The position numbers and the translations under genes were made by a program. A DNA stretch of 64,000 bases from Methylobacterium sp. (GTDB taxonomy: Bacteria; Pseudomonadota; Alphaproteobacteria; Rhizobiales; Beijerinckiaceae), in contig PERO01000021.1 in assembly GCA_002928875.1 (NCBI GenBank), forward strand, positions 62,001 through 126,000. The letters run 5' to 3'. Shown piece by piece: positions 2-61,404 of this stretch. How positions within the stretch are numbered: position 1 is the first letter of the stretch; each line of letters begins with the position of its first letter. Under the pieces are notes generated by a model, which saw only the letters and a list, made by a program, of their open reading frames with translations, did not search any database and was not told where the DNA came from.

Positions 2-289
2 ATCGGCATGGCCGCGCCGAAGGAAGGCATCTTCCCGGTGCCGTCGGGCATCGCGGTCGTGAAGGGCGGCCCGCATACGGACCTCGCCTTCGCCTATATC
101 AACGAGCTTCTCGGCTCCGAGGTGCAGTCGAAGATCGCCGGCCCGACCTTCGCCATGCCGACCAACACCGATACTCCGGTGCCGGCGGGCATGCCGACGG
201 ATGCGAAAATCCACACGATCGACTGGGCCTTCGTGGCCGAGAATCGCACCGAATGGGTGAAGCGCTGGGACCGCGAGATGGCGACCTGA
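2..289 (+). CDS. ABC importer substrate-binding protein, spermidine/putrescine type (C-terminal fragment)
   Basis: Only the last 95 residues are in the window; the gene begins upstream. The fragment has the look of the C-terminal lobe of a PotD-like periplasmic binding protein: a segment with P-S-G-I-A-V-V-K-G, then a helix with AFAYINELL, and an end rich in W and R (VKRWDREMAT). The family binds a small ligand in the periplasm and hands it to the membrane permeases. The assignment is supported by the PotA/PotB/PotC-like genes that follow 39 bases later on the same strand. The ligand cannot be read from the fragment; the downstream enzymes suggest a ureide, hydantoin or imide rather than a polyamine. 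Confidence 0.75.
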   Translation: MGMAAPKEGIFPVPSGIAVVKGGPHTDLAFAYINELLGSEVQSKIAGPTFAMPTNTDTPVPAGMPTDAKIHTIDWAFVAENRTEWVKRWDREMAT

Positions 290-328
290 GGACCAGGGCC
301 GCGGCCTCGCCCGCGCCCGTGATCGATC

Positions 329-1405
329 ATGTCTGACCCGGCTTTCCTTGATGTGCGGCAGGCGACGAAGAGCTTCGGCGCCACGCGTGTGCTCGATGGC
401 GTCGACCTCGCGGTTGGGAAGGGTGAGTTCGTCTCCCTTCTCGGGCCGTCGGGCTGCGGAAAAACCACGCTCCTGCGCCTCATCGCAGGGCTGGCGGCGG
501 CGGATTCCGGCCGGTTCCGCCTCGATGGCCAGGAGATCGCGGCCTTGCCGCCGCACAAGCGCGATGTCGGCGTCGTCTTCCAGAGCTACGCGCTGTTTCC
601 GCATCTGACGGTCGCGGAAAACATCGCCTTCGGCCTCAAGGCCAAGGGGGCACCGGCGGGTGTGATCGCCGAAACCGTGAAGCAGTTCCTTGGCCTGGTG
701 CATATGGAGGCGCTGGCCGACCGTTCCGTACGTGCCCTCTCCGGCGGGCAGCAGCAGCGGGTGGCGGTCGCGCGCGCGCTCGCGGTGAAGCCGAAGCTGC
801 TGCTTCTCGACGAACCCTTCTCCGCGCTCGATCGCAAGCTGCGCGAGACGATGCAGATCGAGCTTCGCCGCCTCCTGCGCGAACTGGCGATCACCGCGAT
901 CTTCGTGACGCATGATCAGGACGAGGCGCTCATCATGTCCGACCGGATCGCCGTGATGAATCGCGGGCGGATCGAGCAATTCGAGACGCCCGAGGCGATC
1001 TACGCGCGGCCCGCAACGCCCTTCGCGCTGGAATTCGTGGGTCTCTCGACCCGCATCGCCGGCACGGTGACCGCTTACGATGAAGCGGGCTTCGTGACGG
1101 TCGACACGCCGCAGGGCCAACTCGTGGCCCGGGGGCGCTTTGCGGCGGGAAGCCCCGTGCTGCTCGGCATCCGGCCCGAGCGCATCCGGTTCGGGACGGA
1201 GGGCGGCGAAAACCGGATCGCGCCCGTGCTGCGGGATATCGTGTTCCAGGGGGCAAGGGTCCAGGCCCATTTCGTCAGCCCGGATGACCGGCCAATCCTG
1301 ATCGAGACCTCCGCCGCCCTGCCTGCGGGTCTCGCGGCCGGCATGCCCGTGCCGATCTCGTTTGCGGCGGCGGATACCCTCGCCTACCCCGCCGAGGCCG
1401 CGTGA
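329..1405 (+). CDS. ABC importer ATP-binding protein, PotA-like
   Basis: This 358-residue protein has all nucleotide-binding motifs: Walker A GPSGCGKT at 39-46, the Q-loop VVFQSYALFP near 82, the signature LSGGQ at 137-141, Walker B LLLLDEP at 157-163 and the switch VTHD at 193-196. A C-terminal TOBE-type regulatory region follows from about residue 235. Its length and the C-terminal domain are typical of PotA/FbpC/UgpC-class ATPases. It hydrolyses ATP on the cytoplasmic face to drive the two permeases encoded directly downstream; its stop overlaps the next start by 4 bases. Substrate is inferred only from context. Confidence 0.92.
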   Translation: MSDPAFLDVRQATKSFGATRVLDGVDLAVGKGEFVSLLGPSGCGKTTLLRLIAGLAAADSGRFRLDGQEIAALPPHKRDVGVVFQSYALFPHLTVAENIAFGLKAKGAPAGVIAETVKQFLGLVHMEALADRSVRALSGGQQQRVAVARALAVKPKLLLLDEPFSALDRKLRETMQIELRRLLRELAITAIFVTHDQDEALIMSDRIAVMNRGRIEQFETPEAIYARPATPFALEFVGLSTRIAGTVTAYDEAGFVTVDTPQGQLVARGRFAAGSPVLLGIRPERIRFGTEGGENRIAPVLRDIVFQGARVQAHFVSPDDRPILIETSAALPAGLAAGMPVPISFAAADTLAYPAEAA

Positions 1406-2238
1406 TGAACAGCCTCGCCGGCAACCGGGTGATCTGGCTCGCGGTGCCCGCGCTCGGCTTCCTCGCGATCTTCTACGCCGCGCCGCTGTTCTATCTGCTC
1501 GCGCGCAGCTTCATCGGGCCGAACGGCTTTTCAATCGGGCTTTTCACGGCCTTTTTCGCCGATGCCTACAACTGGCGCGTCATCGGCAACACCCTGCGCA
1601 TCGCGCTGCTGGTGACGCTGGTTTGCCTCACCGTGGGTTATCCCGTCGCCCTGGCCTTGGCGCGTTCGAAGGGGCTCGCGCAGGTGATCCTGCTGACCGC
1701 GATCATCCTGCCGCTCTCCGTGGGTGTGGTGGTGAAGGCCTTCGCCTGGCAGATCGTGCTGCGGCGCGACGGGGCGATTGCGAAGCTGCTGGTCTCCACC
1801 GGCATCTGGGACGAGCCGCAACGCCTGCTCTTCACCGAGCCCGGCCTGGTGATCGGCGCGGCGAATGTGTTCCTGCCCTTCATGATCCTGCCGATCTATT
1901 CGGTGGTGAAGCTCATTGATCCGCGCCTCTGGGAAGCCGGCGCGACGCTCGGCGCGAGCCCGCTCTACCGCTTCCGCAAGATCATCCTGCCGCTGACCAT
2001 GCCGGGCCTGATCAGCGGTATGGCCTTCGTCTTCTCGATGTCGGTCTCGATGTTCGTGATCCCCAGCCTGCTGATGGGCGACCGCTTCCAGACGCTCGCC
2101 ACGCTCACTGGCCGCTCCTTCCTGCTGATGCGCAACGAGGCACTCGGTTCGGCGACCGCCGTGGTGCTGCTGGTGCTCGCGGTTTCGATCGTCGTGGGTT
2201 CGACCTGGCTGTCGCGCCGGATCGGGAGGTCGGGATGA
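1402..2238 (+). CDS. ABC importer permease, PotB-like
   Basis: A 278-residue integral membrane protein with about six hydrophobic segments, starting with one at residues 9-33. The EAA-type coupling loop that contacts the ATPase is visible as WEAGATLGASPLYRFRKI at about 176-193. It is the first of two permeases of the heterodimeric channel. The ATG start lies inside the 3' end of the ATPase gene (ATGA overlap), so translation is probably coupled. Confidence 0.9.
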   Translation: MMNSLAGNRVIWLAVPALGFLAIFYAAPLFYLLARSFIGPNGFSIGLFTAFFADAYNWRVIGNTLRIALLVTLVCLTVGYPVALALARSKGLAQVILLTAIILPLSVGVVVKAFAWQIVLRRDGAIAKLLVSTGIWDEPQRLLFTEPGLVIGAANVFLPFMILPIYSVVKLIDPRLWEAGATLGASPLYRFRKIILPLTMPGLISGMAFVFSMSVSMFVIPSLLMGDRFQTLATLTGRSFLLMRNEALGSATAVVLLVLAVSIVVGSTWLSRRIGRSG

Positions 2239-3035
2239 CCGCGATCGAAAAGGCCGCGAGCGCGCTCGTCTGGTTCGTCGCAGCCTTGGCGGTGATCTTC
2301 CTGCTGTCGCCGCTCGTCATCACGATCGCCGTCTCGTTCGGGGATAGCGCGGTGTTCTCTCTGCCGCCGCCGGGCTGGTCCACGCGCTGGTACGAGCGGC
2401 TGCCGAACACGCGCGGGCTTGCGGCCTCGCTCGGCACATCGGTGCAGATCGCGGCGCTCTCGACGCTTGTCTCGCTTGTGCTCGGCACGCTCTGCGCCAT
2501 TGCGCTGGTGCGCGGCGAATTCCGGGGGCGCGAGGCGATTGCGACCTTTCTCGTCTCTCCGCTCATGTTGCCGGGACTGGTCGTGGGCATCGCGATGCTG
2601 CAGGGCTTCCGCGCCATGGGCCTGCGGGATGCCTGGCTGAGCCTGCTCGTGGCGCATGTCATCATCACCATGCCCTATGTGGTGCGCACGGTTCTGGCGT
2701 CGCTCAGCCTCTTCGATTTCACCCTCATCGAGGCCGCCCGGACGCTCGGCTGCAACACGATGCAGGCCCTGCGCAAGGTGATGGTACCGGCGCTCGCCCC
2801 GGCCTTCCTCACCTCGGGCATGTTCGCCTTCCTCGCTTCCATGGACAATTATCCGATCTCGATCTTCTTCACCGATGCCTGGACCAAGACCCTGCCGATC
2901 CAGATGCTGCAACTGGTGGAGGAGCGCCCCGACCCGATGATCGCCGCCGTCTCGACCCTGTTGATCCTGCTCGCGATCCTCGCGATGATCATCGGCGACC
3001 GGCTTGTGGGCCTGAAGAAGCTCGCGGAGTTCTGA
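2235..3035 (+). CDS. ABC importer permease, PotC-like
   Basis: A 266-residue membrane protein and partner of the preceding permease. The EAA loop is seen as IEAARTLGCNTMQALRKV at about 170-187. Six hydrophobic segments are visible. It overlaps the preceding gene by 4 bases (ATGA) and its last base is the first base of the next gene, so transporter and hydrolase genes form one transcription unit. Confidence 0.9.
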   Translation: MTAIEKAASALVWFVAALAVIFLLSPLVITIAVSFGDSAVFSLPPPGWSTRWYERLPNTRGLAASLGTSVQIAALSTLVSLVLGTLCAIALVRGEFRGREAIATFLVSPLMLPGLVVGIAMLQGFRAMGLRDAWLSLLVAHVIITMPYVVRTVLASLSLFDFTLIEAARTLGCNTMQALRKVMVPALAPAFLTSGMFAFLASMDNYPISIFFTDAWTKTLPIQMLQLVEERPDPMIAAVSTLLILLAILAMIIGDRLVGLKKLAEF

Positions 3036-3991
3036 TGCCCCCGCCCGATCTCCCTGCGACGGACCGCGATTTTCAGGGCTATCGCGCCGGCGAACCGTCG
3101 ATCCTCTGGCCGAACGGCGCGCAACTCGCCGTTTCGGTCGTCGTCAATGTCGAGGAGGGCGCGGAACTCGCGCTATCCGCCGGCGATGAGGCGAACGAGT
3201 TCATCTACGAGGCCAATGAGCGCACCGAAGGCGTGCGCGACCTCTGCATGGAGAGCCATTACGAATACGGCACGCGGCGCGGCTGGCCGCGCATCCGGCA
3301 GGCGCTGAAGGATCACGGCGTCACGGCCACGCTCAACGCCAATGGCCGTGCCCTCGCCTATTCGCCCTGGATCGGCGCGGAGGCCATTTCCGACGGCCAC
3401 GAGGTATCCGCCCATGGCTGGCGCTGGGAGCGGCACGCGCACATGGATGAAGCGACCGAGCGTCGCGCCATCGCCCGCACGGTGGCGGCCATCGCGGCCA
3501 GCGCGGGCACTCCCCCGCGCGGCTGGCACACGCGTTCCGCAACCTCGCCAAACACCCGCCGCCTGCTGATCGAGCATGGCGGATTTCTTTACGATTCCAA
3601 CGCCTACAACGACGATTGCCCCTATATGGCGGCGATTGGCGGGCGCGATCTCGTGATCCTCCCCTATGCCTTCGACACGAACGACATGCGGTTCCAGCCC
3701 GGCGGCGCCTTCGTGGAGGGAGACGATTTCGCGCGCTACTGCATCGCGGCCTTCGAGCGGCTCCATGCCGAAGGACGGACCGCGCCACGCATGCTCTCGA
3801 TCGGGATCCATCTGCGCATCATCGGTCGCCCCGCGCGGATCGGCGGGCTCGAACGGCTGCTGGCGCATATGGCGGGCCGCGAAGGCGTTTGGTTTGCGAC
3901 CCGCGAAGCCATCGCCCATCATTGGCGCGCGGGGCTCGGCCTGCCGGAATGGCAGCCGCGCCCTGCCCTTTCCGCCTTCGAGGTGGCATGA
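3035..3991 (+). CDS. PuuE-like polysaccharide-deacetylase-family hydrolase (allantoinase/imidase type), paralogue 1
   Basis: This 318-residue protein has the NodB/polysaccharide-deacetylase fold in the version found in PuuE allantoinase and bacterial cyclic-imide hydrolases, not in sugar deacetylases. Visible marks are WPNGAQLAVSVVVNVEEGAE near the N-terminus, ESHYEYGTRRGWPRI, SAHGWRWERH, a P-N-T-R-R-L-L-I-E segment, GFLYDSNAYNDDCPYM, PYAFDTNDMRF, and SIGIHLRIIGRPARI. These are known from memory of the family to be shared with PuuE. Expected reaction: hydrolytic opening of a five-membered cyclic amide such as allantoin, hydantoin or an imide, in the cytosol. The exact substrate is not determined by the sequence. 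Confidence 0.85.
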   Translation: MPPPDLPATDRDFQGYRAGEPSILWPNGAQLAVSVVVNVEEGAELALSAGDEANEFIYEANERTEGVRDLCMESHYEYGTRRGWPRIRQALKDHGVTATLNANGRALAYSPWIGAEAISDGHEVSAHGWRWERHAHMDEATERRAIARTVAAIAASAGTPPRGWHTRSATSPNTRRLLIEHGGFLYDSNAYNDDCPYMAAIGGRDLVILPYAFDTNDMRFQPGGAFVEGDDFARYCIAAFERLHAEGRTAPRMLSIGIHLRIIGRPARIGGLERLLAHMAGREGVWFATREAIAHHWRAGLGLPEWQPRPALSAFEVA

Positions 3992-4887
3992 TGGGTTTCG
4001 ATTTCACCGGCTATGGCGGGAACTGGCCGGATTTCCGCTGGCCCAACGGCGCGCGGCTCGCCGTTTCCGTCGTCGTGAATTTCGAGGAAGGCGCGGAGAT
4101 GCAGGTGGGCTATGGCGACCCGCTGAGCGAGCGGCTCGGCGAGGTGATCAGCGTCGTCGAGCCGGGCCGGCGCGATCGCGGGCAGGAGCAGATCTTCGCC
4201 TATGGCCTGCGCGCCGGCCTCTGGCGCATGCTCGATGCGCTGGACCGGCATGGTCTGCGCGCGACCTTCTTCTGCTGCGGCCGGGCGGTGAAGCAATCGC
4301 CGCAACTCGCGGCGGAAATCACAAAGCGCGGGCATGAGCCGGCGCTGCATGGCTGGCGCTGGCGCCCGCATGCCGATTACCTGAGCCGCGCGGACGAGGC
4401 GCGCGATCTTGATCGCGCCATCGCGGTGATCGAGGCGGCTTGCGGGGAGAAACCGACCGGGTTCTTCTGCCGTGGTGCCGAGAGCGACTGGACCCGCGCG
4501 CTGTTGATCGAGCGCGGATTTGCCTATGCTTCCAACGCCTTCGACGACGACCTGCCCTATTGGGACCGGAGCGGCGCGCGGCCCCTGCTCGTCGTGCCCT
4601 ACGCGCTCGACACCAACGACATGAAGTTCTTTCATCCCAACGGCTTCGTGCGCGCGAGCGAGATGGTGGATTATGTGACCGACGCGCTCGACGTGCTGCT
4701 CGCCGAAGCGGAGCGATCCGGCCCGCGCCTGCTGAATATCGGCTATCACCTGCGGATCTGTGGGCGACCCGCCCGCTTTCCCGCTTTCGAAGCCGTGCTG
4801 GCCCGCCTCGCGGCCTTCGGGGATCGGGTTTATGTGGCGCGGCGCTACGAGATCGCCCGCGCCTTTGCGGCAGCGGTGCCGGCATGA
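3988..4887 (+). CDS. PuuE-like polysaccharide-deacetylase-family hydrolase, paralogue 2
   Basis: The start is taken as the first of two adjacent ATG codons, giving a 4-base overlap with the preceding gene and a 299-residue protein. It shares the family frame (WPNGARLAVSVVVNFEEGAE, HGWRWRPH, DDDLPYW, PYALDTNDMKFF, NIGYHLRICGRPARF) but is clearly different from its neighbour. Where paralogue 1 and PuuE have GW-T-R and P-N-T-R-R, this one has GFFCRGAESDWTRALLIE. It is therefore likely to act on a different ring or a later intermediate rather than being a recent duplicate. A longer reading frame extends upstream inside paralogue 1 but is not needed. Confidence 0.85.
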   Translation: MMGFDFTGYGGNWPDFRWPNGARLAVSVVVNFEEGAEMQVGYGDPLSERLGEVISVVEPGRRDRGQEQIFAYGLRAGLWRMLDALDRHGLRATFFCCGRAVKQSPQLAAEITKRGHEPALHGWRWRPHADYLSRADEARDLDRAIAVIEAACGEKPTGFFCRGAESDWTRALLIERGFAYASNAFDDDLPYWDRSGARPLLVVPYALDTNDMKFFHPNGFVRASEMVDYVTDALDVLLAEAERSGPRLLNIGYHLRICGRPARFPAFEAVLARLAAFGDRVYVARRYEIARAFAAAVPA

Positions 4888-4897
4888 GGGCCGAGCG

Positions 4898-6286
4898 ATG
4901 ATCCCCCTCGCCCGTGATCTCGCCGCCGGCATCCGGTCCGATCGGCTCGACCCGGTCGCCGTCACGCGGGATGCGCTTGCGCGCTGCCATGCCTCGCAAC
5001 CCCGCCTCAACGCGCTGACCGTGATCGACGACAACAAGGCTCTCGCGGAAGCCGCGACGATCTCTGCGCGCCTGGCGGCCGGTGCGCATCTGCCGCTGGC
5101 AGGCGTGCCGATCGTCGTGAAGGACAACATCTGGGTCGGTGGCTGGCGCATCACGCAAGGCTCGCGCTACTTCGCCGATCACATCGCCCCGTGCGATGCG
5201 CTGGCTGTGGAACGCGCGCGACAGGCCGGCGCAATCGTGCTCGGCATCGGGCATTGCCCGGAATTCGCCTGCAAGGGCCTGACGCGCTCGCCGCTTTACG
5301 GCACGACGCATCACCCCATGGATGCGAGCCTCACGCCCGGTGGCTCCTCGGGCGGGAACAGCGCGATTGTCGCGGCCGGCAGCGTGCCCCTGTCCATCGG
5401 CACGGATGGCGGCGGTTCGAGCCGTCGCCCGCCCGCGCATTGCGGCCTCGTCGGCTTCAAGCCGAGCCACGGCGCGATCCCGCATCCCTTTGGCTTCCCT
5501 GAGCCTTTCTGGTGGATCACCTGCATCGCGCCCATCGCGCGCGACGTCGCGGATGCGGCCCTGCTGTTTTCCGTGATGGCCGGCCCTGATGCGCGCGACC
5601 CCGAAAGCCTTCGCCTCCTCGCGATGCGCGACGAAAGGCCGGAAGCCTTGCGCATCGCCTTCCACTCCACCCTGGGGCTCGATGTGCCGGTGGATGACGA
5701 TGTGGCGGATGGTTTCGCGAAGGCCATCGACACCCTGCGCAAGGCGGGCCTGGCCATGATTGAAACCGCGCCTGTCTGGCCCGAGCCGGAGGAGCGCGCG
5801 GCCCTGTCGGCGATCCAGTTCGCGGGGCTTGCGGCGATCCATGGCACACGCTACCGCGCCGATCCCGCGGCGATTGACCCGGATGTCGCCGCGCAGATCG
5901 AGCAAGGTTTCCGCCTGCCCGCGACCGAGGTGGCGCGCGGCCTGGAAACGAGCCAGCAGATACGCCGCGGCCTCGGCGCGTTTTTCGCAGAATTCGATCT
6001 GATGCTCTCGCCCACCACGCCTTGCGTGGCCTGGCCGCACACGGAACTCGGCCCGGCGATGATCGGCGGGAAGCCGGTCGATGCGCGCGGGCATGCCTCC
6101 TTCACGCCGCTCTACAATCACGGGCAGAACCCGGCGATTTCCATTCCCTGCGGGCGCGGTCGCGCCGGTCTGCCCATCGGATTGCAGATCGCGGGCGGCG
6201 TGGGCGAGGATCAGCGCGTGCTGGCCTTCGCGGCGGCAGCCGAGCGCATCCTCGCGGAAGCCGGCCTGTGGACGGGGCTTTCATGA
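4898..6286 (+). CDS. Amidase (amidase-signature family)
   Basis: A 462-residue amidase-signature enzyme. The Ser-cis-Ser-Lys triad can be placed: Lys75 in VVKDNIW, the cis-Ser in GGSSGG at 150/151, and the nucleophile Ser174 in GTDGGGSS. The family hydrolyses amide bonds in the cytosol. In this operon it could cleave the linear half-amide or carbamoyl product left after ring opening by the PuuE-like enzymes; the imidase plus half-amidase pair known for cyclic-imide breakdown is the closest precedent. The ATG at 4898 lies 10 bases after the previous stop; an upstream in-frame ATG would overlap the previous gene by more than 100 bases and is rejected. Confidence 0.88.
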   Translation: MIPLARDLAAGIRSDRLDPVAVTRDALARCHASQPRLNALTVIDDNKALAEAATISARLAAGAHLPLAGVPIVVKDNIWVGGWRITQGSRYFADHIAPCDALAVERARQAGAIVLGIGHCPEFACKGLTRSPLYGTTHHPMDASLTPGGSSGGNSAIVAAGSVPLSIGTDGGGSSRRPPAHCGLVGFKPSHGAIPHPFGFPEPFWWITCIAPIARDVADAALLFSVMAGPDARDPESLRLLAMRDERPEALRIAFHSTLGLDVPVDDDVADGFAKAIDTLRKAGLAMIETAPVWPEPEERAALSAIQFAGLAAIHGTRYRADPAAIDPDVAAQIEQGFRLPATEVARGLETSQQIRRGLGAFFAEFDLMLSPTTPCVAWPHTELGPAMIGGKPVDARGHASFTPLYNHGQNPAISIPCGRGRAGLPIGLQIAGGVGEDQRVLAFAAAAERILAEAGLWTGLS

Positions 6287-7053
6287 CGCGCATCCTGATC
6301 CTCAACCCTAACATGACCGAGGCGATGACGATCCGCCTCACCGAGGTTGCCGCGCGGGTCGCCTCACCCGGCACGGCGATCGCCAGCGCCACCGCGCCGC
6401 GCGGCTTCCCCTACATTTCGAGCCGGGCCGAGGCGCAGATCGCCGGGGCGATCGCGCTGGAGATGCTCGCCGAACGGCAGGGCCAGTTCGACGCGGCGAT
6501 CATCGCGGCCTTTGGTGATCCCGGCTTGATCGCGGCGCGCGAATTGTTCGATGAGCCCGTCATCGGCATGTCGGAAGCGGCGATGCTCACCGCCCTCATG
6601 CTGGGCAAACGCTTCGGAATCGTCAGTTTCGCCGCCCGCATGGCGCCTTGGTACGAGGAATGCGTGGAGATGCACGGATTGACCGGGCGTTGCGCGGGCG
6701 TGTTCTGCCTCGACGAGCCGATTTCCTCGGTCGCGGATGTCGCGGCTGAAAAGAGCGAGGCTCTGGTGACGCTCTCCGGCCGCGCCATCGCGGCGGGTGC
6801 GGATGTGGTCATCCTCGCCGGCGCGCCGCTCGCCGGGCTTGCGGCGGAGGTCGCGCCTCTCATCCCCGTGCCGCTGGTCGATCAGGCGCAGGCCGCGCTG
6901 AAACAGGCGGAAACGCTTGTGGCGCTGAAGCCGCGCAAGGCGGGTGACGGCCGGTTCAAGCGACCGCTGCCGAAGCCGAGCCACGGGCTCGCGGCCGCGC
7001 TCGCCAACCGCATCTCGCACGACGATACCCCTTCCGGAGGCTCCCATGGCTGA
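6283..7053 (+). CDS. Asp/Glu/hydantoin racemase family protein lacking both catalytic cysteines
   Basis: A 256-residue member of the hydantoin/allantoin racemase family, recognised by the start TRILILNPNMT, the motif FGDPGL at 77-82, ARELFDEPVIG and a second strand DVVILAGAPLAGLAAE. In active hydantoin racemases a Cys stands before the F-G/D-D-P-G-L motif and another in G-C-A-G-M. Here those positions are Ala76 and Gly180, so the two-base cysteine mechanism is not available. Other cysteines (127, 137, 142) lie elsewhere. It may be a non-racemising homologue, a different lyase, or a regulatory partner. It overlaps the amidase by 4 bases and the next gene by 8. Confidence 0.82.
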   Translation: MTRILILNPNMTEAMTIRLTEVAARVASPGTAIASATAPRGFPYISSRAEAQIAGAIALEMLAERQGQFDAAIIAAFGDPGLIAARELFDEPVIGMSEAAMLTALMLGKRFGIVSFAARMAPWYEECVEMHGLTGRCAGVFCLDEPISSVADVAAEKSEALVTLSGRAIAAGADVVILAGAPLAGLAAEVAPLIPVPLVDQAQAALKQAETLVALKPRKAGDGRFKRPLPKPSHGLAAALANRISHDDTPSGGSHG

Positions 7054-8461
7054 GTTCGATCTCGCGATCCGCAACGGCACGATCATCACTGCCGCCGATA
7101 CCATCACCTGCGACATCGGCATCCGGGGCGGGCGAATCGTGCAACTCGCCGAGCGGATAGAGGGTGCGGCCCGCGAGGTGGATGCGAAAGGCCTCCTCGT
7201 GATGCCCGGCGGCATCGACAGCCATGTGCATCTCGACCAGGAATCCGGCCCGGAAATCCGCATGGCCGACGATTTCGAGAGCGGCACGCGCGCCGCGCTC
7301 GCGGGCGGCAACACGACCGTCATCGCCTTCGCGAAGCAGGAGAAGGGCAAGTCGCTGCGCGCCTGTGTCGAGGCCTATCACAAAAAGGCGAACGGCAAAG
7401 CGATGATCGATTACGGCTTCCACCTCATCGTCTCAGACCCCACGCCGGGCGTGCTGAACCAGGAACTGCCGGCTTTGTTCCAGGATGGCTGCACCTCTTT
7501 CAAGGTGTTCATGACCTATGACGATCTCGTGCTGAACGACCGGCAATTGCTGGAGGTTTTCGCCGTCGCGAAACGCGAGCGCGCGCTCGTGATGGTGCAT
7601 GCCGAGGGCTACGACACCATCAAGTTCCTCACCGAAAAACTCGAATCCGAGGGCAAGACCGCGCCCTATTTCCACGCCCTGTCCCGCCCCCAGCTCATCG
7701 AGCGCGAGGCGACGCATCGCGCCATCAGCCATGCCGAACTGATCGACGTGCCGATCATGATCGTGCATGTCTCGGGCCGCGAACCCATGGAGCAGATCCG
7801 CTGGGCGAAGAGCCGGGGCTTGCGCGTCTATGCCGAGACCTGCCCGCAATACATCTCGCTCACCGCCGACGACCTGAAGGGCGAGGACCTCGCGGGAGGG
7901 AAATATGTCTGTTCGCCCCCGCCGCGCGACCGCGACAGCTGGGCCGCGATCTGGGAGGGCCTGAAGGATGGTACGTTCCAGGTGTTCTCGTCGGATCATT
8001 GCCCGTTCTATTTCGACAGCGAGGCGGGCAAGAAGCACCCCAAAGCGCGCCAATCCTTCCGCTATGTGCCGAACGGCATTCCCGGCATCGAAACACGGCT
8101 GCCGATCCTCTGGTCGGAGGGTGTCGCCAAGGGCCGGATCAGCGCGAACGACTTCGTGGCGCTGACGTCGACCAACCACGCCAAGCTCTACGGCATTTAC
8201 CCGAAAAAGGGCACGATTGCCGTGGGTTGCGACGCCGACCTCGTGCTCTGGGACCCCAACCGCAAGGAAATCATCCGGCAGGAGATCCTGCATCACGGCT
8301 CGGATTACACGCCATGGGAGGGCTTCGCGGTCACCGGCTGGCCGGTGATGACCATCGCGCGCGGGAAGATCGTGATGGATGACGGCCAGGTGCTGGCGAA
8401 AGCCGGCGACGGGCAGTTCCTCGCCCGCGATATCTCGCCCTATGCGGAGAAGGCGGCGTGA
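7046..8461 (+). CDS. hydA: Dihydropyrimidinase / D-hydantoinase
   Basis: A 471-residue amidohydrolase-superfamily enzyme with the full binuclear metal site: H60 and H62 in GIDSHVHLDQ, the carbamylated Lys153 in SFKVFMTYDD, H185 in MVHAEG, H241 in IVHVSGREP and D317 in FSSDHCP. Length matches known hydantoinases. It hydrolyses dihydropyrimidines or 5-substituted hydantoins to N-carbamoyl acids. The ATG at 7046 is preceded by a good ribosome-binding site (GGAGG at 7036-7040) and is preferred over an upstream in-frame start inside the racemase-like gene. No N-carbamoyl-amino-acid hydrolase gene is present, so the amidase or a gene elsewhere must finish the pathway. Confidence 0.93.
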   Translation: MAEFDLAIRNGTIITAADTITCDIGIRGGRIVQLAERIEGAAREVDAKGLLVMPGGIDSHVHLDQESGPEIRMADDFESGTRAALAGGNTTVIAFAKQEKGKSLRACVEAYHKKANGKAMIDYGFHLIVSDPTPGVLNQELPALFQDGCTSFKVFMTYDDLVLNDRQLLEVFAVAKRERALVMVHAEGYDTIKFLTEKLESEGKTAPYFHALSRPQLIEREATHRAISHAELIDVPIMIVHVSGREPMEQIRWAKSRGLRVYAETCPQYISLTADDLKGEDLAGGKYVCSPPPRDRDSWAAIWEGLKDGTFQVFSSDHCPFYFDSEAGKKHPKARQSFRYVPNGIPGIETRLPILWSEGVAKGRISANDFVALTSTNHAKLYGIYPKKGTIAVGCDADLVLWDPNRKEIIRQEILHHGSDYTPWEGFAVTGWPVMTIARGKIVMDDGQVLAKAGDGQFLARDISPYAEKAA

Positions 8462-9996
8462 ACCCTTCGACGCTGGTTCTGGCCGACCGCATCGTCGAGG
8501 GCGTCGCGCCCGACGGCATGCCGGTCATCCATGACGATGCGGCGATCCTGATCGAAGCGGGCGTTGTGAAGGCCATCGGCCCGGCCCGCGCGCTGGTGGC
8601 CGCGCATCCCGGCGTGGAAACGCTGGGCGGGCGTGGCAAGGTGGTGATGCCCGGCCTCATCAACGCGCATCACCATGTCGGTCTTACGCCGTTCCAGCTG
8701 GGATCGCCCGATTATCCGCTCGAATTGTGGTTTGCCTCGCGGATCGCGCTGCGGGATGTCGATCTCCGGCTCGACACCTTGTTCTCGGCTTTCGAAATGA
8801 TCGCGAGCGGCGTGACCACCGTTCAGCACCTGCATTCGCGCGCGCCGGGCGATGCGCAAGCCGTGCTGGGCGCCGCGCGCAAGGTGATCGGCTCCTATCG
8901 CGAAATCGGCATGCGCGCGTCCTATTCCATGGCTTTGCGCGACCAGAACCGGCTGGTCTATCAGGATGACCGGCTCTTCACGGATAGCGTGCCGGAGACC
9001 CTTCGTCCGGCCCTGCGCGCGTTTTTCGAGCGCTTCACCTTGCCACTTTCCGAGCAGGTCGCGGTGTTCGAGGCCTTGCGCGCGGAACTTCAGGCAGAGC
9101 CGCGCATCCGCTTTCAGGTCGCGCCCGCGAACCTGCACTGGCTGTCGGACGAGGCGCTTCGACTCGCGGCCGAGCTTTCGAGCCGGCACGGCATGCCCAT
9201 CCACATGCACCTCCTCGAAACGCCCTACCAGAAGGAATATGCACGGCGGCGCACCGGCGGCTCGGCCGTGGCCTATCTCGAACGTTTCGGCCTGCTGAGC
9301 GACCGGATGACCCTCGGCCACGGCGTCTGGATGAGCGAGAGCGATATCGAGCAATGCGCCGCGCATGGCGCGCGGATCTGCCACAATTGTTCCTCGAATT
9401 TCCGTCTCAAGAGCGGGATTGCGCCGGTCAACCGGTTTCTCGCGAAGGGCATTCCGGTCTGCCTCGGCATCGACGAGGCCGGGATCAACGAGGATCGCGA
9501 CATGCTGCAGGAGATGCGCCTCGTCCTGCGCGCACATCGCGAGCCGGGGATCGACGCGCCGCAGCCCTCGGCCGTGGAAGTCTTCCGCATGGCGACCGGA
9601 CATGGCGCGGCCACGACGCCCTTTGGCGACCGGATCGGCTCGCTGAAGCCGGGATCGCTGGCCGATCTCGTGCTGCTCGACCATGCCAAGGTCACCCACC
9701 CCTACCAGCATGCCGAGACGCCGCTGATCGACGTGATCCTCCACCGCGCGAAGCCCTCGGCCATCGAGGCCGTGATGGTGGGCGGCGAGGTGATCTACGA
9801 GGATGGCCGCTTCACGCGCATCGACCGCGCGCAGGTGCTGGAGGCCATCCGCGAGAGCCTGGCTGCGCCGCTCACGCCAACGGAACTGGATCGGAAGCGG
9901 CTGTCGGAAGCCATCTTCCCGCATGTGAAGGCGTTTTATGATCGCTGGCTGCCGGCGGAGCCCGGCGCGCCGCACACGTCTTACAATGCGAAATAG
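8458..9996 (+). CDS. Amidohydrolase of the TRZ/ATZ (chlorohydrolase/deaminase) type
   Basis: A 512-residue metal-dependent hydrolase starting with GTG that overlaps the hydantoinase stop by 4 bases. The metal motif is MPGLINAHHHV (His71-73); later PIHMHLLETP, LGHGVWM and LGIDEAG supply the remaining ligands and the catalytic Asp. The subfamily includes atrazine-type dechlorinases, guanine and 8-oxoguanine deaminases and SsnA-like proteins, acting on N-heterocycles. Its position as last gene of the operon suggests deamination or hydrolysis of an N-heterocycle feeding into the ring-opening enzymes. The exact substrate is unknown. It ends head-on to the hydroxyisourate hydrolase gene. Confidence 0.87.
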   Translation: MNPSTLVLADRIVEGVAPDGMPVIHDDAAILIEAGVVKAIGPARALVAAHPGVETLGGRGKVVMPGLINAHHHVGLTPFQLGSPDYPLELWFASRIALRDVDLRLDTLFSAFEMIASGVTTVQHLHSRAPGDAQAVLGAARKVIGSYREIGMRASYSMALRDQNRLVYQDDRLFTDSVPETLRPALRAFFERFTLPLSEQVAVFEALRAELQAEPRIRFQVAPANLHWLSDEALRLAAELSSRHGMPIHMHLLETPYQKEYARRRTGGSAVAYLERFGLLSDRMTLGHGVWMSESDIEQCAAHGARICHNCSSNFRLKSGIAPVNRFLAKGIPVCLGIDEAGINEDRDMLQEMRLVLRAHREPGIDAPQPSAVEVFRMATGHGAATTPFGDRIGSLKPGSLADLVLLDHAKVTHPYQHAETPLIDVILHRAKPSAIEAVMVGGEVIYEDGRFTRIDRAQVLEAIRESLAAPLTPTELDRKRLSEAIFPHVKAFYDRWLPAEPGAPHTSYNAK

Positions 9997-10057
9997 CGCT
10001 TCTTCTGTCGCATTGTCTTCGCGCCAACCGGCGACCCCTTGGCTTGAAAATGCTTCC
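9996..10057. repeat. Partial, diverged copy of the dispersed ~107-bp repeat (copy C)
   Basis: The 60-base gap between two convergent genes holds a sequence matching the second half of the repeats at 30704-30810 and 54630-54736. Shared blocks are TGTCGCATT, CGCCAACCGG and TTG(A/G)AAATGCT; the first-half hairpin is missing. The element fills almost the whole gap, so it may act as, or replace, a transcription terminator for both genes. Confidence 0.6.
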
Positions 10058-10059
10058 GA

Positions 10060-10413
10060 TTACGCCCCGCGAAACAGCGAGAAGCCGTAGGGCGTGAACT
10101 TGAAGGGCAGATGATAATGCTCGGCCGCATTCCGCACCCGGAAGCGGAACGGCACCTCATCGAGAAATGGCGCGTCGCGTCCCGTCCGCGCGAAAAAGGC
10201 GCCGAGATCGAACCGCACCTCGTAGAGGCCGGCGACGACGCCCGCACCACGGGCCGAGGCATGATCGAGGAGGCCGTTCGCGCCGATCTCCCCCGCCGCA
10301 ACGAGCGCGGGCGACGGTTCGAGCCGATGAAGCTCGACGTTGAGCCCCGCCGCGACACGCCCGGTCGCGATATCCATCGCATGGATGGAAATTCCGCCCG
10401 CCTGCTCCATCAT
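10060..10413 (-). CDS. uraH: 5-hydroxyisourate hydrolase (transthyretin-like)
   Basis: A 117-residue protein of the transthyretin-like HIUase family. It shows ISIHAMDIATGRVAAGLNVE at the N-terminus, GLYEVRFDLGAFF, and HYHLPFKFTPYGFSLFRGA at the end. The enzyme opens 5-hydroxyisourate after uricase in purine breakdown. The family hallmark is a C-terminal Tyr-Arg-Gly-Ser; here it is Phe-Arg-Gly-Ala, so the last active-site Ser is replaced. Uricase and OHCU decarboxylase are not in the window. It may act in purine degradation beside the PuuE-like enzymes, or on a related ring. Confidence 0.87.
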   Translation of the reverse strand: MMEQAGGISIHAMDIATGRVAAGLNVELHRLEPSPALVAAGEIGANGLLDHASARGAGVVAGLYEVRFDLGAFFARTGRDAPFLDEVPFRFRVRNAAEHYHLPFKFTPYGFSLFRGA

Positions 10414-11330: not shown

Positions 11331-11984
11331 ATGCCAACAGCATCGCCCAAGCCGGGAGCGACCCTCCTCGACCCGAAGAACCACATCCTGATCATGATCG
11401 ATCACCAGTCGCAGATGTCTTTCGCGACCAAGTCGATCGATGCCGTCATGCTTCGCAACAACGCCGCCCTGGTTGCCAAGGGTGCCGCCGGTTTCGGGGT
11501 GTCGACCATCCTCACCACCGTCGCCGAGAAGACCTTCTCGGGCCCGATCTTCGACGAGATCCGGTCGGCCTTTCCGGATGCGGACATCATTGACCGCACG
11601 ACGATGAACACCTGGGAGGACGGGCGCATCACTGATCGCATCAACGCGATCAACAAGCCGAAGATCGTGCTGGCGGGTTTGTGGACCTCGGTCTGCATCG
11701 TCGGCCCTGCCCTGTCCGCCATCGATCAGGGCTTCGAGGTCTATGTGATTGCCGATGCCTGCGGCGATGTCTCCGACGAAGCGCATGAGCGCGCCATGGA
11801 GCGCATGGTGCAGATGGGCGCCCGGCCGATGACCGCCCTGCAATATCTGCTCGAATTGCAGCGCGACTGGGCGCGCGGCGAGACCTACGACATGACCACC
11901 GGCATCGCGAAGATCCATGGCGGCGGCTACGGCCTGGGCATCATCTACGCCAAGACCATGTTCGGTGCGCAGGAAGGCCACTGA
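11331..11984 (+). CDS. YcaC-like isochorismatase-family hydrolase
   Basis: A 217-residue cysteine-hydrolase fold protein. Asp24 in IMIDHQSQ and Cys122 in LWTSVCIVGPALSAI are the catalytic Asp and Cys; the usual third residue position carries R in DRTTMNTWED, as I recall for YcaC. YcaC itself has no settled substrate. The protein is cytosolic and opens a putative operon with XapX, an amidohydrolase and an MFS exporter. A small amide, N-carbamoyl compound or xenobiotic is a plausible substrate; the sequence does not decide. Confidence 0.88.
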   Translation: MPTASPKPGATLLDPKNHILIMIDHQSQMSFATKSIDAVMLRNNAALVAKGAAGFGVSTILTTVAEKTFSGPIFDEIRSAFPDADIIDRTTMNTWEDGRITDRINAINKPKIVLAGLWTSVCIVGPALSAIDQGFEVYVIADACGDVSDEAHERAMERMVQMGARPMTALQYLLELQRDWARGETYDMTTGIAKIHGGGYGLGIIYAKTMFGAQEGH

Positions 11985-11999
11985 GCCCACGCTTCGTCA

Positions 12000-12040
12000 C
12001 GTGCTGCCGGCGGCATCCCGTTTCCGTCGCCTGCAGCACG
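12000..12040 (+). terminator. Intercistronic stem-loop between hydrolase and xapX-type gene
   Basis: CGTGCTGC at 12000-12007 pairs perfectly with 12033-12040. After a single C/T mismatch, GGCGGC at 12009-12014 pairs with 12026-12031 with one G-U pair, leaving an 11-base loop. No T-run follows, so it is more likely an attenuator or mRNA-processing/stability element than a strong intrinsic terminator. Confidence 0.45.
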
Positions 12041-12072
12041 CCGTTCCGATGCCAGCCCGGTGAGGCCGTCTC

Positions 12073-12330
12073 ATGAAGCTTTATCTCATCGCTTTGGGCG
12101 CGGGCCTGCTGGTCGGCGTCATCTATGGCCTGCTGAATGTCCGCTCGCCCGCACCACCCGTGATCGCGCTGGTCGGCCTCCTCGGGATTCTCGTGGGCGA
12201 GCAGATCGTGCCGATCGTCAAGCGCTGGATCGGGGGCGATGGCGTCACCCTCTCCTGGATGCGGACGGAATGCGCGCCACATGTCTTCGGGGAATTGCCG
12301 AAACAGGCGTCGAAAAACACGGAAAGCTAG
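12073..12330 (+). CDS. XapX-domain small membrane protein
   Basis: An 85-residue protein with two hydrophobic helices (about 3-21 and 29-50) joined by the short turn NVRSPAPPVIALVG, which with LLGILVGEQ is the mark of the XapX (DUF1427) family. The C-terminal ~25 residues are polar and probably cytosolic. Function is not known for the family. The gene lies 21 bases upstream of the amidohydrolase and downstream of the YcaC-like gene, a combination that suggests a joint role, perhaps in membrane association or transport of the same compound. Confidence 0.85.
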   Translation: MKLYLIALGAGLLVGVIYGLLNVRSPAPPVIALVGLLGILVGEQIVPIVKRWIGGDGVTLSWMRTECAPHVFGELPKQASKNTES

Positions 12331-12351
12331 CGCAACCAGCAGGGGTCGCCC

Positions 12352-14241
12352 ATGTCCGAAGCCAGCCTCCTGCTCGTCAACGGGCGCTTCACGACGCTGG
12401 ACCCGGCCCGGCCGGACGCCGAGGCGCTGGCGATCCGCGACGGCCGGATCATGGCGGTGGGCCCGCGCGCCGATCTGCAGCCAAGCGTGGGCGCTGACAC
12501 GCAGGTGATCGATCTCGGCGGAAGGCGCGTCATCCCCGGTCTCAACGACAGCCACACGCATCTGATCCGCGGTGGTCTGAACTACAACATGGAGCTGCGC
12601 TGGGAGGGCATCGAGAGCCTCGCCGATGCGCTGGCGCTGCTGAAGGCGCAGGCCGCGATCACCCCGCCGCCGCAATGGGTGCGCGTCGTCGGCTCCTTCA
12701 CGATGTTCCAGTTCAAGGAAAAGCGCCTGCCGACGCTGGAGGAGATCAACGCGGCGGCGCCGGATACGCCGGTCTTCATCTTGCACCTCTACGATCGCGC
12801 GCTGCTGAACCGTGCCGCGCTGCGTGCCGTGGGCTACACGAAGGACACGCCCGAGCCGCCCGGCGGCGAGATCCAGCGGGATTCCAACGGCAACCCCACC
12901 GGCCTGCTGCTCGCGAAACCCAATGCCGCGATCCTCTACGCGACGCTCGCGAAGGGCCCGCGCCTCGAACCCGAGGACCAGATCAACTCCACCCGGCATT
13001 TCATGCGCGAACTGAACCGCCTCGGCATCACCAGCGTGATCGATGCCGGCGGCGGCTTCCAGAACTATCCGGACGATTACCAGATCATCCGGAAGCTCGC
13101 CGATGACGACCAGCTCACATTGCGCATCGCCTACAACCTCTTCACACAGCGCAAGGGCGCGGAGAAGGAGGATTTCGTCAACTGGGCGAAGCTCGTGAAA
13201 CCCGGCCAGGGCAATGACTGGTTCCGCCACAACGGCGCCGGCGAGATGCTCGTCTTCTCGGCGGCGGATTTCGAGGATTTCTTCATGCCGCGGCCGGATC
13301 TCGCGCCGGAGATGGAGAACGAACTCGAACAGGTCGTGCGCGTGCTCGCGGCCAATCGCTGGCCCTTCCGCCTGCACGCGACCTATGACGAAAGCATCGG
13401 CCGGGCGCTCGATGTCTTCGAGCGGGTGAACCGCGAGATCCCCTTCGACGGTTTGCACTGGTTCTTCGACCATGCCGAGACGGTCTCCGAGCGCAACATC
13501 GAGCGCATCCGCGCGCTCGGCGGCGGCATCGCCGTGCAGCATCGCATGGCCTTTCAGGGCGAGGCCTTCGTGGAGCGCTATGGCGTGCGCGCGGCCGAGG
13601 CGACGCCCCCCATCCGCCGCATGCTGGAGATGGGCGTGCCCGTCGGTGGCGGCACGGATGCCACGCGCGTCGCGAGCTACAACCCCTGGACGTCGCTCGC
13701 CTGGCTCGTCACGGGCATGACGGTCGGCGGCATGCGCCTCTATCCGCCGGCGAACCGGCCGAGCCGGCTTGAGGCGCTGCGGATGTGGACCGAAGGTTCG
13801 GCCTGGTTCTCGACCGAAGGCGGCAAGAAGGGCCGGCTTGCGCCGGGCCAGCTCGCCGATCTCGCCGTGCTCTCCGCCGATTACATGACAGTGCCGGAAG
13901 CGGACATCGCCGGCATCGAAAGCGTGCTGACCATCGTCGGCGGGCGGATCGTCCATGCCGATGCGGATTTCAAGCCGCTCGGACCGAAGCCGCTGCCGGT
14001 GAGCCCGGATTGGGCGCCCTCGAAGCGCTATGCCCTCGAGCACCGCAAGGCGCGCGCCGCCGCCTTCGTGGCCGAGCAAATCGACGGGGCCATCGCCGCG
14101 ACCGGCGAGGCCTGCTGCACCAGCGCCTGCCATGTCCATGCGCATCAGCATGCCCGGCCCCGGACGGCCACCGCACCGGTGCGCGACAAGGACCTCGCCG
14201 ATTTCTGGGGTGCTTTCGGCTGCAGCTGCTTCGCGTTCTGA
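12352..14241 (+). CDS. YtcJ-like amidohydrolase with Cys/His-rich C-terminal tail
   Basis: A 629-residue amidohydrolase of the YtcJ/Amidohydro_3 class. It shows the metal motif VIPGLNDSHTHLIRGG, a later FRLHATYDES, HWFFDHAET, and GGGTDATRVASYNPW, the last carrying the catalytic Asp. The family contains exoenzyme-like amide hydrolases of mostly unknown substrate. An odd extension at 584-629 carries Cys588, 589 and 593, His594, 596, 598 and 600, and finally Cys624 and 626, which could bind metal. No signal peptide is visible. Confidence 0.87.
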   Translation: MSEASLLLVNGRFTTLDPARPDAEALAIRDGRIMAVGPRADLQPSVGADTQVIDLGGRRVIPGLNDSHTHLIRGGLNYNMELRWEGIESLADALALLKAQAAITPPPQWVRVVGSFTMFQFKEKRLPTLEEINAAAPDTPVFILHLYDRALLNRAALRAVGYTKDTPEPPGGEIQRDSNGNPTGLLLAKPNAAILYATLAKGPRLEPEDQINSTRHFMRELNRLGITSVIDAGGGFQNYPDDYQIIRKLADDDQLTLRIAYNLFTQRKGAEKEDFVNWAKLVKPGQGNDWFRHNGAGEMLVFSAADFEDFFMPRPDLAPEMENELEQVVRVLAANRWPFRLHATYDESIGRALDVFERVNREIPFDGLHWFFDHAETVSERNIERIRALGGGIAVQHRMAFQGEAFVERYGVRAAEATPPIRRMLEMGVPVGGGTDATRVASYNPWTSLAWLVTGMTVGGMRLYPPANRPSRLEALRMWTEGSAWFSTEGGKKGRLAPGQLADLAVLSADYMTVPEADIAGIESVLTIVGGRIVHADADFKPLGPKPLPVSPDWAPSKRYALEHRKARAAAFVAEQIDGAIAATGEACCTSACHVHAHQHARPRTATAPVRDKDLADFWGAFGCSCFAF

Positions 14242-60459: not shown

Positions 60460-61404
60460 TTATTTGTCTGCCGCGATCAGGCCGCGGACGAAGTAACCCT
60501 GCATGAAGATGACCACCAGAAGCGGTGGCAGCATGACGATCAGCGTGCCGGCCATGGCCTCGTTCCAGACCGGCGGCTGGCCGAAAAGCGGCCCCGGCAC
60601 GAGCTTCTGGAGCTGCATGGTCGCGGTGGTCATTTCCGGCCGCGTGGTGATCAGCAGCGGCCAGAGATACTGGTTCCAGGCATAGACGAACATGATGGTG
60701 GCGAGGGCGGCCATGTTGGTCTTCGAGAGCGGCAGCAGCACGTCCCGGAAGAAGCGCAAGGGGCCGGCGCCATCCATGCGCGCGGCTTCGACGAGTTCAG
60801 CCGGGATCGTCATGAAGAATTGCCGGTAGAGGAAGGTGCCCGTCGCGGTCGCAACCAGCGGCAGGATGAGCCCGGTATAGGAATTCAGCAGGTTCCACTC
60901 GGGCAAGGCGATCGCCACCTGCGGCAGATTGCCGACGCCGATCAGCCCCAGCAGCGTGGCGGGGGCATTGAAAACCGCGTTCAGGAATCCCTGGACGGGC
61001 GAGAGCGCATTGGCCGCCACCGCGTAGGTCGGCACGATGCGCACCTCGAGCGGCAGCATCAGCGTCACGAAGATCAGCCAGAAGCAGAACATCTTCAGCC
61101 GGTAATTGAAGAAGACGATCGAGAAGGCCGAAATCGCAGCAATCGCGATCTTGCCGATCGTCACGCCGGTGGCAACGATGAAGGAATTCACGAATTTCGT
61201 GCCGAAATCGGATTTGTTCCAGACCTTCGTGTAGTTCTCGACGAGGCTGTCGCCGGGCAGGAGCGGCATCGGCACCTGGTTGACGGTCTGGAAATCGTGG
61301 CTCGACGCCACGAAGACGATGTAAATCGGCAGAGCCGCGAGCACGAGGCCAAAGAGCATGGCCAGATGCGTGAAGAAATTCAGGATGGGCGTGCGCTCGA
61401 TCAT
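60460..61404 (-). CDS. ugpE: Glycerol-3-phosphate ABC importer permease
   Basis: A 314-residue six-helix permease with EAA loop [23 protein letters not shown] (in two parts) and [28 protein letters not shown] after helix 1, the latter block known from UgpE proteins. Partner of the next permease; 9 bases apart. Confidence 0.88.

Follow-up and report, generated by a model that had tools for sequence, protein, structure and literature searches.

A Methylobacterium operon uniting a Pot-type importer with PuuE-like and other amide- and ring-acting hydrolases, and its relatives across proteobacteria

The window, that is, the whole stretch of DNA analyzed here, comprises 64,000 nucleotides from Methylobacterium sp. 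(assembly GCA_002928875.1, contig PERO01000021.1, positions 62,001 to 126,000; G000:C9:62001-126000 in our numbering), in a genome of 3.24 Mb that is 84% complete. An earlier note, made from the sequence alone, had described ten plus-strand genes at its left end as an operon for uptake and ring opening of ureides, hydantoins or cyclic imides. The coordinates and families of these ten genes were confirmed, as were those of a minus-strand transthyretin gene. The first gene, which encodes an ATP-binding cassette (ABC) solute-binding protein, is truncated at the left border of the window; its true start, with a start codon of our choice, lies at contig position 61231 (window position -769). The plus-strand order is SBP1, PotA1, PotB1, PotC1, PuuE1, PuuE2, Ami, Rac, DHP and TRZ, followed by HIU on the minus strand:

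2..289, plus strand: SBP1, C-terminal part of the ABC solute-binding protein (352 amino acids whole); PF13343 and other solute-binding families on the longer reading frame
329..1405, plus strand: PotA1, ABC ATPase; ABC_tran and TOBE_2
1402..2238, plus strand: PotB1, permease; BPD_transp_1
2235..3035, plus strand: PotC1, permease; BPD_transp_1
3035..3991, plus strand: PuuE1, PuuE-like hydrolase; TIGR03212, 285 bits (cut-off 424.6)
3988..4887, plus strand: PuuE2, second PuuE-like hydrolase; TIGR03212, 264 bits
4898..6286, plus strand: Ami, amidase-signature amidase; PF01425, 305 bits
6283..7053, plus strand: Rac, member of the racemase-fold family lacking both catalytic cysteines; PF01177, 143 bits
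7046..8461, plus strand: DHP, dihydropyrimidinase/D-hydantoinase; TIGR02033, 545 bits (cut-off 393.25)
8458..9996, plus strand: TRZ, TRZ/ATZ-type amidohydrolase with a GTG start; PF01979, 155 bits
10060..10413, minus strand: HIU, transthyretin/HIUase-like protein, convergent; PF00576, 84 bits
10627..10971, minus strand: HxlR-type regulator, doubtful as a member of the system; PF01638, 81 bits

Overlaps of 1 to 8 bases, which the earlier note had given for the operon, were found at seven of the nine gene junctions: 4 bases at PotA/PotB and PotB/PotC, 1 at PotC/PuuE1 and 4 at PuuE1/PuuE2, then, in the 3' half, 4 at Ami/Rac, 8 at Rac/DHP and 4 at DHP/TRZ. The other two junctions have gaps instead, of 39 bases between SBP and PotA and of 10 bases between PuuE2 and Ami.

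When compared with curated families, DHP was the only operon enzyme above a cut-off among the NCBIfam matches listed. It exceeds the dihydropyrimidinase/D-hydantoinase thresholds of both TIGR02033 and PRK13404 (746 bits, cut-off 647), which bears out its naming as a dihydropyrimidinase. The best NCBIfam score of TRZ is 193 bits against a cut-off of 522, and none of 25 listed cut-offs was reached among 31 matched families. Its residues H71-x-H73, H249-x-H251-xx-E254, H288 and D339 are invariant in all five sequences aligned, its own included, and form a pattern that we take to be that of metal-dependent deaminases; its best PDB relatives are MTA/SAH deaminase and AtzA. Ami likewise reached none of 25 listed NCBIfam cut-offs, and its PDB relatives include GatA, urethanases and biuret hydrolase. 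The importer proteins fall below polyamine cut-offs (score/cut-off in bits: PotA 346/482 and 333/356, PotB 149/348, PotC 159/326), and PotA1 is below the cut-offs of the 25 models listed among 190 matched. PDB relatives of SBP1 include Pot, 2-AEP and agropine-type binding proteins, with a best score of 74 bits, and name no ligand.

The earlier note had also placed a 5-hydroxyisourate hydrolase (HIUase) next to the operon. The adjacency stands, the gene being convergent at a distance of 63 bases, but the name does not: HIU scores 75 bits on TIGR02962 (cut-off 87.45), its motifs are altered, and a copy above the cut-off lies elsewhere in the genome. In HIU and its close homologues (four of four sequences) the C terminus is FRGA and the DGR position reads NGL, with no arginine, while the YRGS end and the DGR motif are present in homologues at three other loci (L061, L073 and L053). 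We take the YRGS C terminus and the DGR arginine to be functional in HIUase. The names allantoinase, racemase and HIUase are unsafe for genes in these loci.

TIGR03212, the model of canonical PuuE allantoinases, is missed by both PuuE1 and PuuE2 and, with 393 bits, by PuuE3, which is encoded in a second operon upstream of the window. The blocks N-x-E-E-G, HG, ND and H-x-R are invariant in a ten-row alignment (A1) of PuuE2 types, PuuE1, PuuE3 and the canonical PuuE of the same genome; they are also kept relative to 1z7a and are presumably catalytic. In the phylogenetic tree, PuuE2 forms one side of a branch with support of 100/100 and PuuE3 is supported at 100/99, whereas the 99/98 branch that sets PuuE1 apart holds only if L062, an outlier that distorts the midpoint root, is set aside. 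Judged from sequence, PuuE1, PuuE2 and PuuE3 are separate subfamilies distinct from canonical PuuE. The outlier is a distant PuuE-like gene inside an apparent peptide-type ABC operon of the same genome (L062 9699-13299, on C11); this cluster was rejected as part of the system, its PuuE having 28% identity and no partner genes being found there at 40%.

The racemase homologue of the earlier note does belong to PF01177, the Asp/Glu racemase family, and aligns over its whole length with the allantoin racemases 3qvj and 5lfd, its nearest PDB relatives being allantoin racemases, but both catalytic cysteines are absent. PMC12661438 gives Cys79 and Cys184 as the catalytic residues of KpAllR, and OpaE retains 4.8% and no more than 0.3% of its activity after the two single Cys-to-Ser changes. 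The two sites are occupied by alanine and glycine in all 33 rows of Rac, that of the window included, and in all 32 rows of Rac2, a second racemase-fold family at related loci (141 bits on PF01177 for the copy at L101; one of 33 rows was dropped by a length filter), so that the same two replacements are common to all 65 aligned rows. The alignment places cysteines at both sites in a glutamate-racemase-like protein of the same genome (L157); this and L154, with one cysteine, were the usable controls, a third (L156) being a badly chosen reading frame. Since both cysteines are lost in every aligned member, Rac and Rac2 are probably not two-cysteine racemases. Decay is unlikely because the reading frames are intact and conserved, and catalysis of some other reaction appears likelier. 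Such proteins would reveal, on a fold already studied in depth, either a novel reaction or a previously unseen acid-base pair. The one-cysteine control L154 is itself a further racemase homologue of the genome (L154 1480-2238, on C4).

Related loci were collected by a pattern scan that yielded at least 515 confirmed PuuE1 relatives, of which the best 80, one genome per species, were analyzed as loci selected by PuuE1. Of these, 53 have 8 kb on both sides, and many of the others are cut by contig ends. Genes were called with our own codon script. Gene presence was assigned by homology mapping with identity thresholds of our choice, and near-duplicate species were not collapsed, which makes the co-occurrence p values optimistic. 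Most of the 80 loci belong to α- and β-proteobacteria. Importer genes are the most frequent partners (PotB1 and PotC1 in 46 loci each, PotA1 in 44, SBP1 in 43), followed by PuuE2, TRZ and Rac2 (33 each), Rac (32), a GntR-FCD regulator (23), SIS (21), PfkB and BtpA (20 each), Ami (17), DHP (12), PuuE3 (9) and HIU (1); at the mapping threshold, no relative of the HxlR-type regulator was found in these loci. The commonest same-direction neighbors are PotC1-PuuE1 (40 loci), PuuE1-PuuE2 (27), PuuE2-Rac2 (21), BtpA-PuuE1 (16), Rac2-TRZ (14) and Ami-Rac (11). PuuE2 and TRZ share 26 loci (Fisher p 1e-8), Ami and Rac share 15 (p 7e-6), and SIS and BtpA share 19 (p 4e-15); in contrast, SBP1 and SIS rarely coincide (3 loci, p 3e-5). 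Across many genomes, the Pot-type importer and the amide- and ring-acting hydrolases thus recur together, whole or as modules.

As a control, we picked nine stretches (13-20 kb) centered on other members of the PuuE family. None held relatives of TRZ, Rac, Rac2, Ami, DHP, the SBP1-PotABC1 importer, SIS, PfkB or BtpA at 40% identity or above; an NHL-repeat gene occurred in two of the nine. Similarly, 19 shorter control loci (2.3-3.9 kb) contained no partner except NHL in two. A test independent of PuuE1 searched 289 genomes, sampled evenly across the class, for TRZ (E 1e-120 or better) and found it in nine, including its own. Three of the eight other TRZ loci (L172, L175, L178) hold core or partner genes, two (L173, L176) hold another PuuE-family gene, which in L176 is nearest to canonical PuuE, and three (L174, L177, L179; TRZ identities of 53, 49 and 41%) have no PuuE or partner genes. 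TRZ is therefore linked to the system, yet also occurs outside it.

Several related loci carry further hydrolases, of carbamoylase type. M20-family genes were found in five PuuE1 loci (L140, L147, L149, L150, L152), with a weaker or contig-edge match in L124 and L137. A CN hydrolase occurs in L140, in L049 (48% identity to that of L175), and in L175, where it lies next to PuuE1-Rac2-DHP and where the DHP belongs to the same subfamily as that of the window (PRK13404, 770 bits). The L175 enzyme matches CN_hydrolase as its only family, and its sole NCBIfam match, N-carbamoylputrescine amidase, is at 126.5 bits against a cut-off of 410; by its motif, it presumably resembles D-carbamoylase. Two plasmids carry such sets: one of Salipiger with GntR, SBP, ABC, PuuE1 (57% identity), amidase, racemase homologue, LysR and hydantoinase genes, and one of Comamonadaceae with ABC genes, a nucleoside deaminase, an amidohydrolase and PuuE1. 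A protein resembling EutA and arylmalonate decarboxylase, a family assigned from L095, was also noted in eight of the 80 loci (L095, L097, L105, L145, L147, L149, L150, L153).

PuuE1, often with PuuE2, accompanies at least four different uptake systems: SBP1-PotABC1, as in the window; SBP2-PotABC2 together with SIS, PfkB and BtpA; PotABC3-PuuE3-NHL; and a TRAP importer in three near-identical loci. Because of this variety, the hydrolases rather than any one transporter are the constant part. Genes for a sugar kinase (PfkB), SIS and BtpA join about a quarter of the 80 loci, and genes of these types share a contig with operon genes in G030 and G057. The presence of SIS, PfkB and BtpA/SgcQ-family genes suggests a glycosylated substrate in some hosts, which may import a glycoside and then release the ring from it. 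Neither SIS nor PfkB was observed next to the window operon, no genome-wide search for them having been made, and the genome has one BtpA-family protein, far off on C1.

Conservation within the genus was assessed in a search of 61 genomes, the window's own included. PuuE1 was found at 84% identity or above in six of its 16 congeners (G002, G003, G011, G012, G013, G015). In five of the six (all but G003; the G011 order was read from record L078, at the same match position), the gene set is SBP1-PotABC1-PuuE1-Ami-Rac-DHP without PuuE2 and TRZ, and a fixed ten-gene operon was accordingly rejected. PuuE2-TRZ-HIU lies elsewhere in G012 and G002, beside PotABC3-PuuE3-NHL; in G011, G013 and G015, search matches resembling PuuE2 and PuuE3 lie on other contigs, separated by about 5 kb. 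G003 has both modules fused the way they are in the window, except that a further racemase homologue separates PuuE2 from Ami; G030, of another genus, has a fused order of its own. An assembly error is unlikely because a second genome, G003, carries the same fusion. On gene order, the window operon would be a merger of modules, or the separate modules a split. The earlier note had offered an order unique to this genome as grounds for refutation. Related sets in many genomes speak against that outcome; the exact ten-gene order was seen in no other genome, G003 being nearest with its one extra gene.

The second operon diverges from SBP1 at about 0.3 kb, as measured between chosen start codons, and has the order PotA3-SBP3-PotB3-PotC3-PuuE3-NHL (L005). 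Its NHL-repeat gene (L005 9285-10160; C9 55285-56160) encodes a protein with weak similarity to peptidylamidoglycolate lyase; NHL adjoins PuuE3 here and in eight of the nine loci with PuuE3, and lies beside PuuE3-like genes in G031 and G004 (L056, L057). Farther upstream, genes for a GTP-cyclohydrolase-II-like protein (PRK07198), a DUF1688 protein, uracil phosphoribosyltransferase and 5'-nucleotidase stand in a row (L005 3734-8589; C9 49734-54589). The first two we take to be URC1 and URC4 of the URC pathway of uracil, which the row resembles. The upstream region also encodes a pyrimidine-nucleoside phosphorylase and a BMP-type binding protein, together with a set for reductive pyrimidine breakdown in which PreA is joined by a D-hydantoinase and by an enzyme of the M20 hydantoinase/carbamoylase family, the last at C9 30072-31319, about 30 kb from the operon on the same contig. 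The operon thus neighbors what looks like a pyrimidine- and nucleoside-catabolic island, with a reductive pyrimidine pathway near the URC-like row.

The urate pathway proper is encoded elsewhere. A urate oxidase N-domain protein (PF06181) is found at C2:185539, and C1 carries an HIUase (126.9 bits on TIGR02962) and a PuuE-UraD fusion (537 bits on TIGR03212 for PuuE); all are above family cut-offs. Consequently, the operon is not the basic urate route of the cell. The statement that carbamoylase and uricase are missing is correct for the operon but was rejected for the genome, given the uricase on C2 and the M20 gene upstream.

The sequence data establish gene content, families, conservation, the missing cysteines and the separate urate genes. 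Tentatively, and with somewhat less than even confidence, we favor the reading that the operon is a dedicated new catabolic pathway, apart from that of urate, for an exogenous amino-substituted cyclic ureide used as nitrogen source, for example an iminohydantoin or a 2-aminoimidazolone. The substrate class, the order of steps and every activity are inferred from the chemistry of the families. Uptake would be through the Pot-type ABC importer, and TRZ would cleave an exocyclic ring C-N bond, with release of ammonia or an amine, so that an imide or a cyclic ureide remains. Ring opening by PuuE1, PuuE2 and DHP would yield half-amides or ureido acids, and Ami would hydrolyze the leftover acyclic amide or ureide. 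Any ureido acids could be processed to the end by the M20 carbamoylase-family enzyme encoded about 30 kb upstream; Rac probably acts on an intermediate, by a reaction other than two-cysteine racemization. An amino-substituted cyclic ureide would need exocyclic removal, ring opening and amide or ureide hydrolysis, which fits the recurring chemistry, and the overlapping co-directional genes and the conserved association across PuuE1 loci support this pathway. Further support comes from the control stretches devoid of these partners, from PuuE subfamilies that differ from canonical PuuE yet retain its blocks, from the urate genes located elsewhere, from the carbamoylase-type genes of several related PuuE1 loci, from the adjoining island of apparent pyrimidine and nucleoside catabolism, and from the Salipiger plasmid. 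Weighing against it, no result points to a particular substrate, the operon itself has no carbamoylase, and TRZ and Ami match no listed curated family at its cut-off. Furthermore, the trait is patchy within the genus (6 of 16 other genomes), TRZ is untied to PuuE1 in that only three of eight independent loci have partners, two having another PuuE and three none, and the modules are separable, so that TRZ and DHP need not share one substrate. Environmental nitrogen includes many ring compounds of unsettled fate; a core present across α- and β-proteobacteria with its own importers would mark such a compound class and offer a direct route to finding it.

A hydantoin or dihydropyrimidine operon, in which DHP opens 5-substituted hydantoins or dihydropyrimidines, the upstream carbamoylase-family enzyme finishes the reaction and PuuE1, PuuE2 and TRZ open the rings of related compounds in an accessory role, is an unlikely alternative. 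It accounts for the DHP scores above the D-hydantoinase cut-offs, for the arrangement at L175, where CN hydrolase, racemase homologue and PuuE1 adjoin a DHP from the subfamily of the window enzyme, and for the M20 carbamoylase-family genes of the five PuuE1 loci. However, DHP is present in only 12 of the 80 loci, against 33 each for PuuE2 and TRZ, the racemase homologue lacks both cysteines, and a second hydantoinase with the M20 carbamoylase-family gene stands in the reductive pyrimidine cluster. Hyu operons of hydantoinase, racemase and carbamoylase share with the window a D-hydantoinase adjoining a racemase homologue, and carbamoylase-type genes occur in several related loci. They differ in that family searches found none of the usual carbamoylase families among the operon genes, although Ami may still do that job, and in the cysteine-free homologue and the addition of two PuuE-like enzymes and TRZ. 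PMC3546935, which treats hydantoinase clusters, has no occurrence of 'polysaccharide deacetylase'. For plasmid pE10SP1, PMC6015842 lists an Asp/Glu/hydantoin racemase and a gene related to dihydroorotase along with a putative polysaccharide deacetylase.

We consider it rather improbable that the operon degrades cyclic imides, with PuuE1 and PuuE2 as imidases and Ami as half-amidase. The model for this is the nicotinate pathway of Aspergillus nidulans, where, according to PMC9304392, HxnM, a proposed cyclic imidase related to PuuE through HpPgdA, precedes the amide hydrolase HxnN. PuuE1, PuuE2 and Ami are contiguous in the window, Ami occurs in 17 of the 80 loci, and PuuE1 is followed directly by Ami in seven. 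Nevertheless, in PDB comparisons PuuE1 is far nearer to PuuE allantoinases (252 and 244 bits) than to the imidase-like 3qbu (42 bits), the closest structural homologue of HxnM (HxnM and the P. putida imidase themselves were not compared), the only chains matching PuuE2 at E 1e-20 or better are three of PuuE type, and imides need neither TRZ nor a hydantoinase.

A more speculative and doubtful proposal is that the pathway is widespread in proteobacteria and scavenges damaged or modified nitrogen rings imported as glycosides, for instance ribosides of oxidized guanine (guanidinohydantoin) or glycation-derived hydroimidazolones. In some hosts the kinase, SIS and BtpA would strip the sugar; TRZ would deaminate, the paired PuuE enzymes would open the ring, and the two cysteine-free racemase-fold enzymes would catalyze a reaction new to their superfamily. 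SIS and PfkB near the core (21 and 20 of 80 loci) recall the SIS deglycase and PfkB kinase of fructoselysine-type systems, but the proteins of L101 score weakly on the FrlB (41 bits, cut-off 430) and FrlD (34 bits, cut-off 247) models, and the window operon has neither gene beside it.

That the operon is a second allantoin pathway, with import, racemization, allantoinase and allantoate breakdown, has a low probability. Urate degradation proceeds through uricase PuuD, HIUase, UraD and PuuE, and Klebsiella has the allantoin racemase HpxA. The PuuE, racemase and transthyretin families are common to that pathway and the operon, and Rac is nearest to allantoin racemases. In contrast, the operon paralogues lie under the curated allantoinase and HIUase cut-offs, the racemase cysteines are lost, Pfam assigns neither a uricase nor an OHCU decarboxylase domain to any operon gene, and TRZ, which has no role in such a pathway, is added along with a hydantoinase, an amidase and a separate importer; a simple allantoin operon was rejected on the cut-offs, the cysteines and the second, canonical gene set. 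The C-8 oxidation cluster for caffeine in Pseudomonas CBB1 similarly acts on a modified purine through paralogues resembling HIUase and allantoinase, and is described in PMC4408171 as lacking an allantoin racemase homologue; unlike that cluster, the operon has no genes of the dehydrogenase, monooxygenase or OHCU decarboxylase families. Finally, an ordinary polyamine or sugar substrate with the hydrolases as unrelated passengers is very improbable: transporter family names and the SIS and PfkB frequencies speak for it, but the transporter proteins fall under polyamine cut-offs and the hydrolases remain constant across at least four uptake systems.

Overall, the operon represents a variant on the catabolic systems already known for ureides and hydantoins. 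The class proposed in the earlier note is upheld, and some of its details, namely the merged modules, the enzyme names and the genes located elsewhere, are corrected. Most notable are the breadth across proteobacteria, the sugar-linked versions and the cysteine-free racemase-fold proteins; a literature search found no published description of the gene set among the matches listed. Beyond the operon, window positions 11331-14241 encode an isochorismatase-family hydrolase and a large Amidohydro_3 protein.

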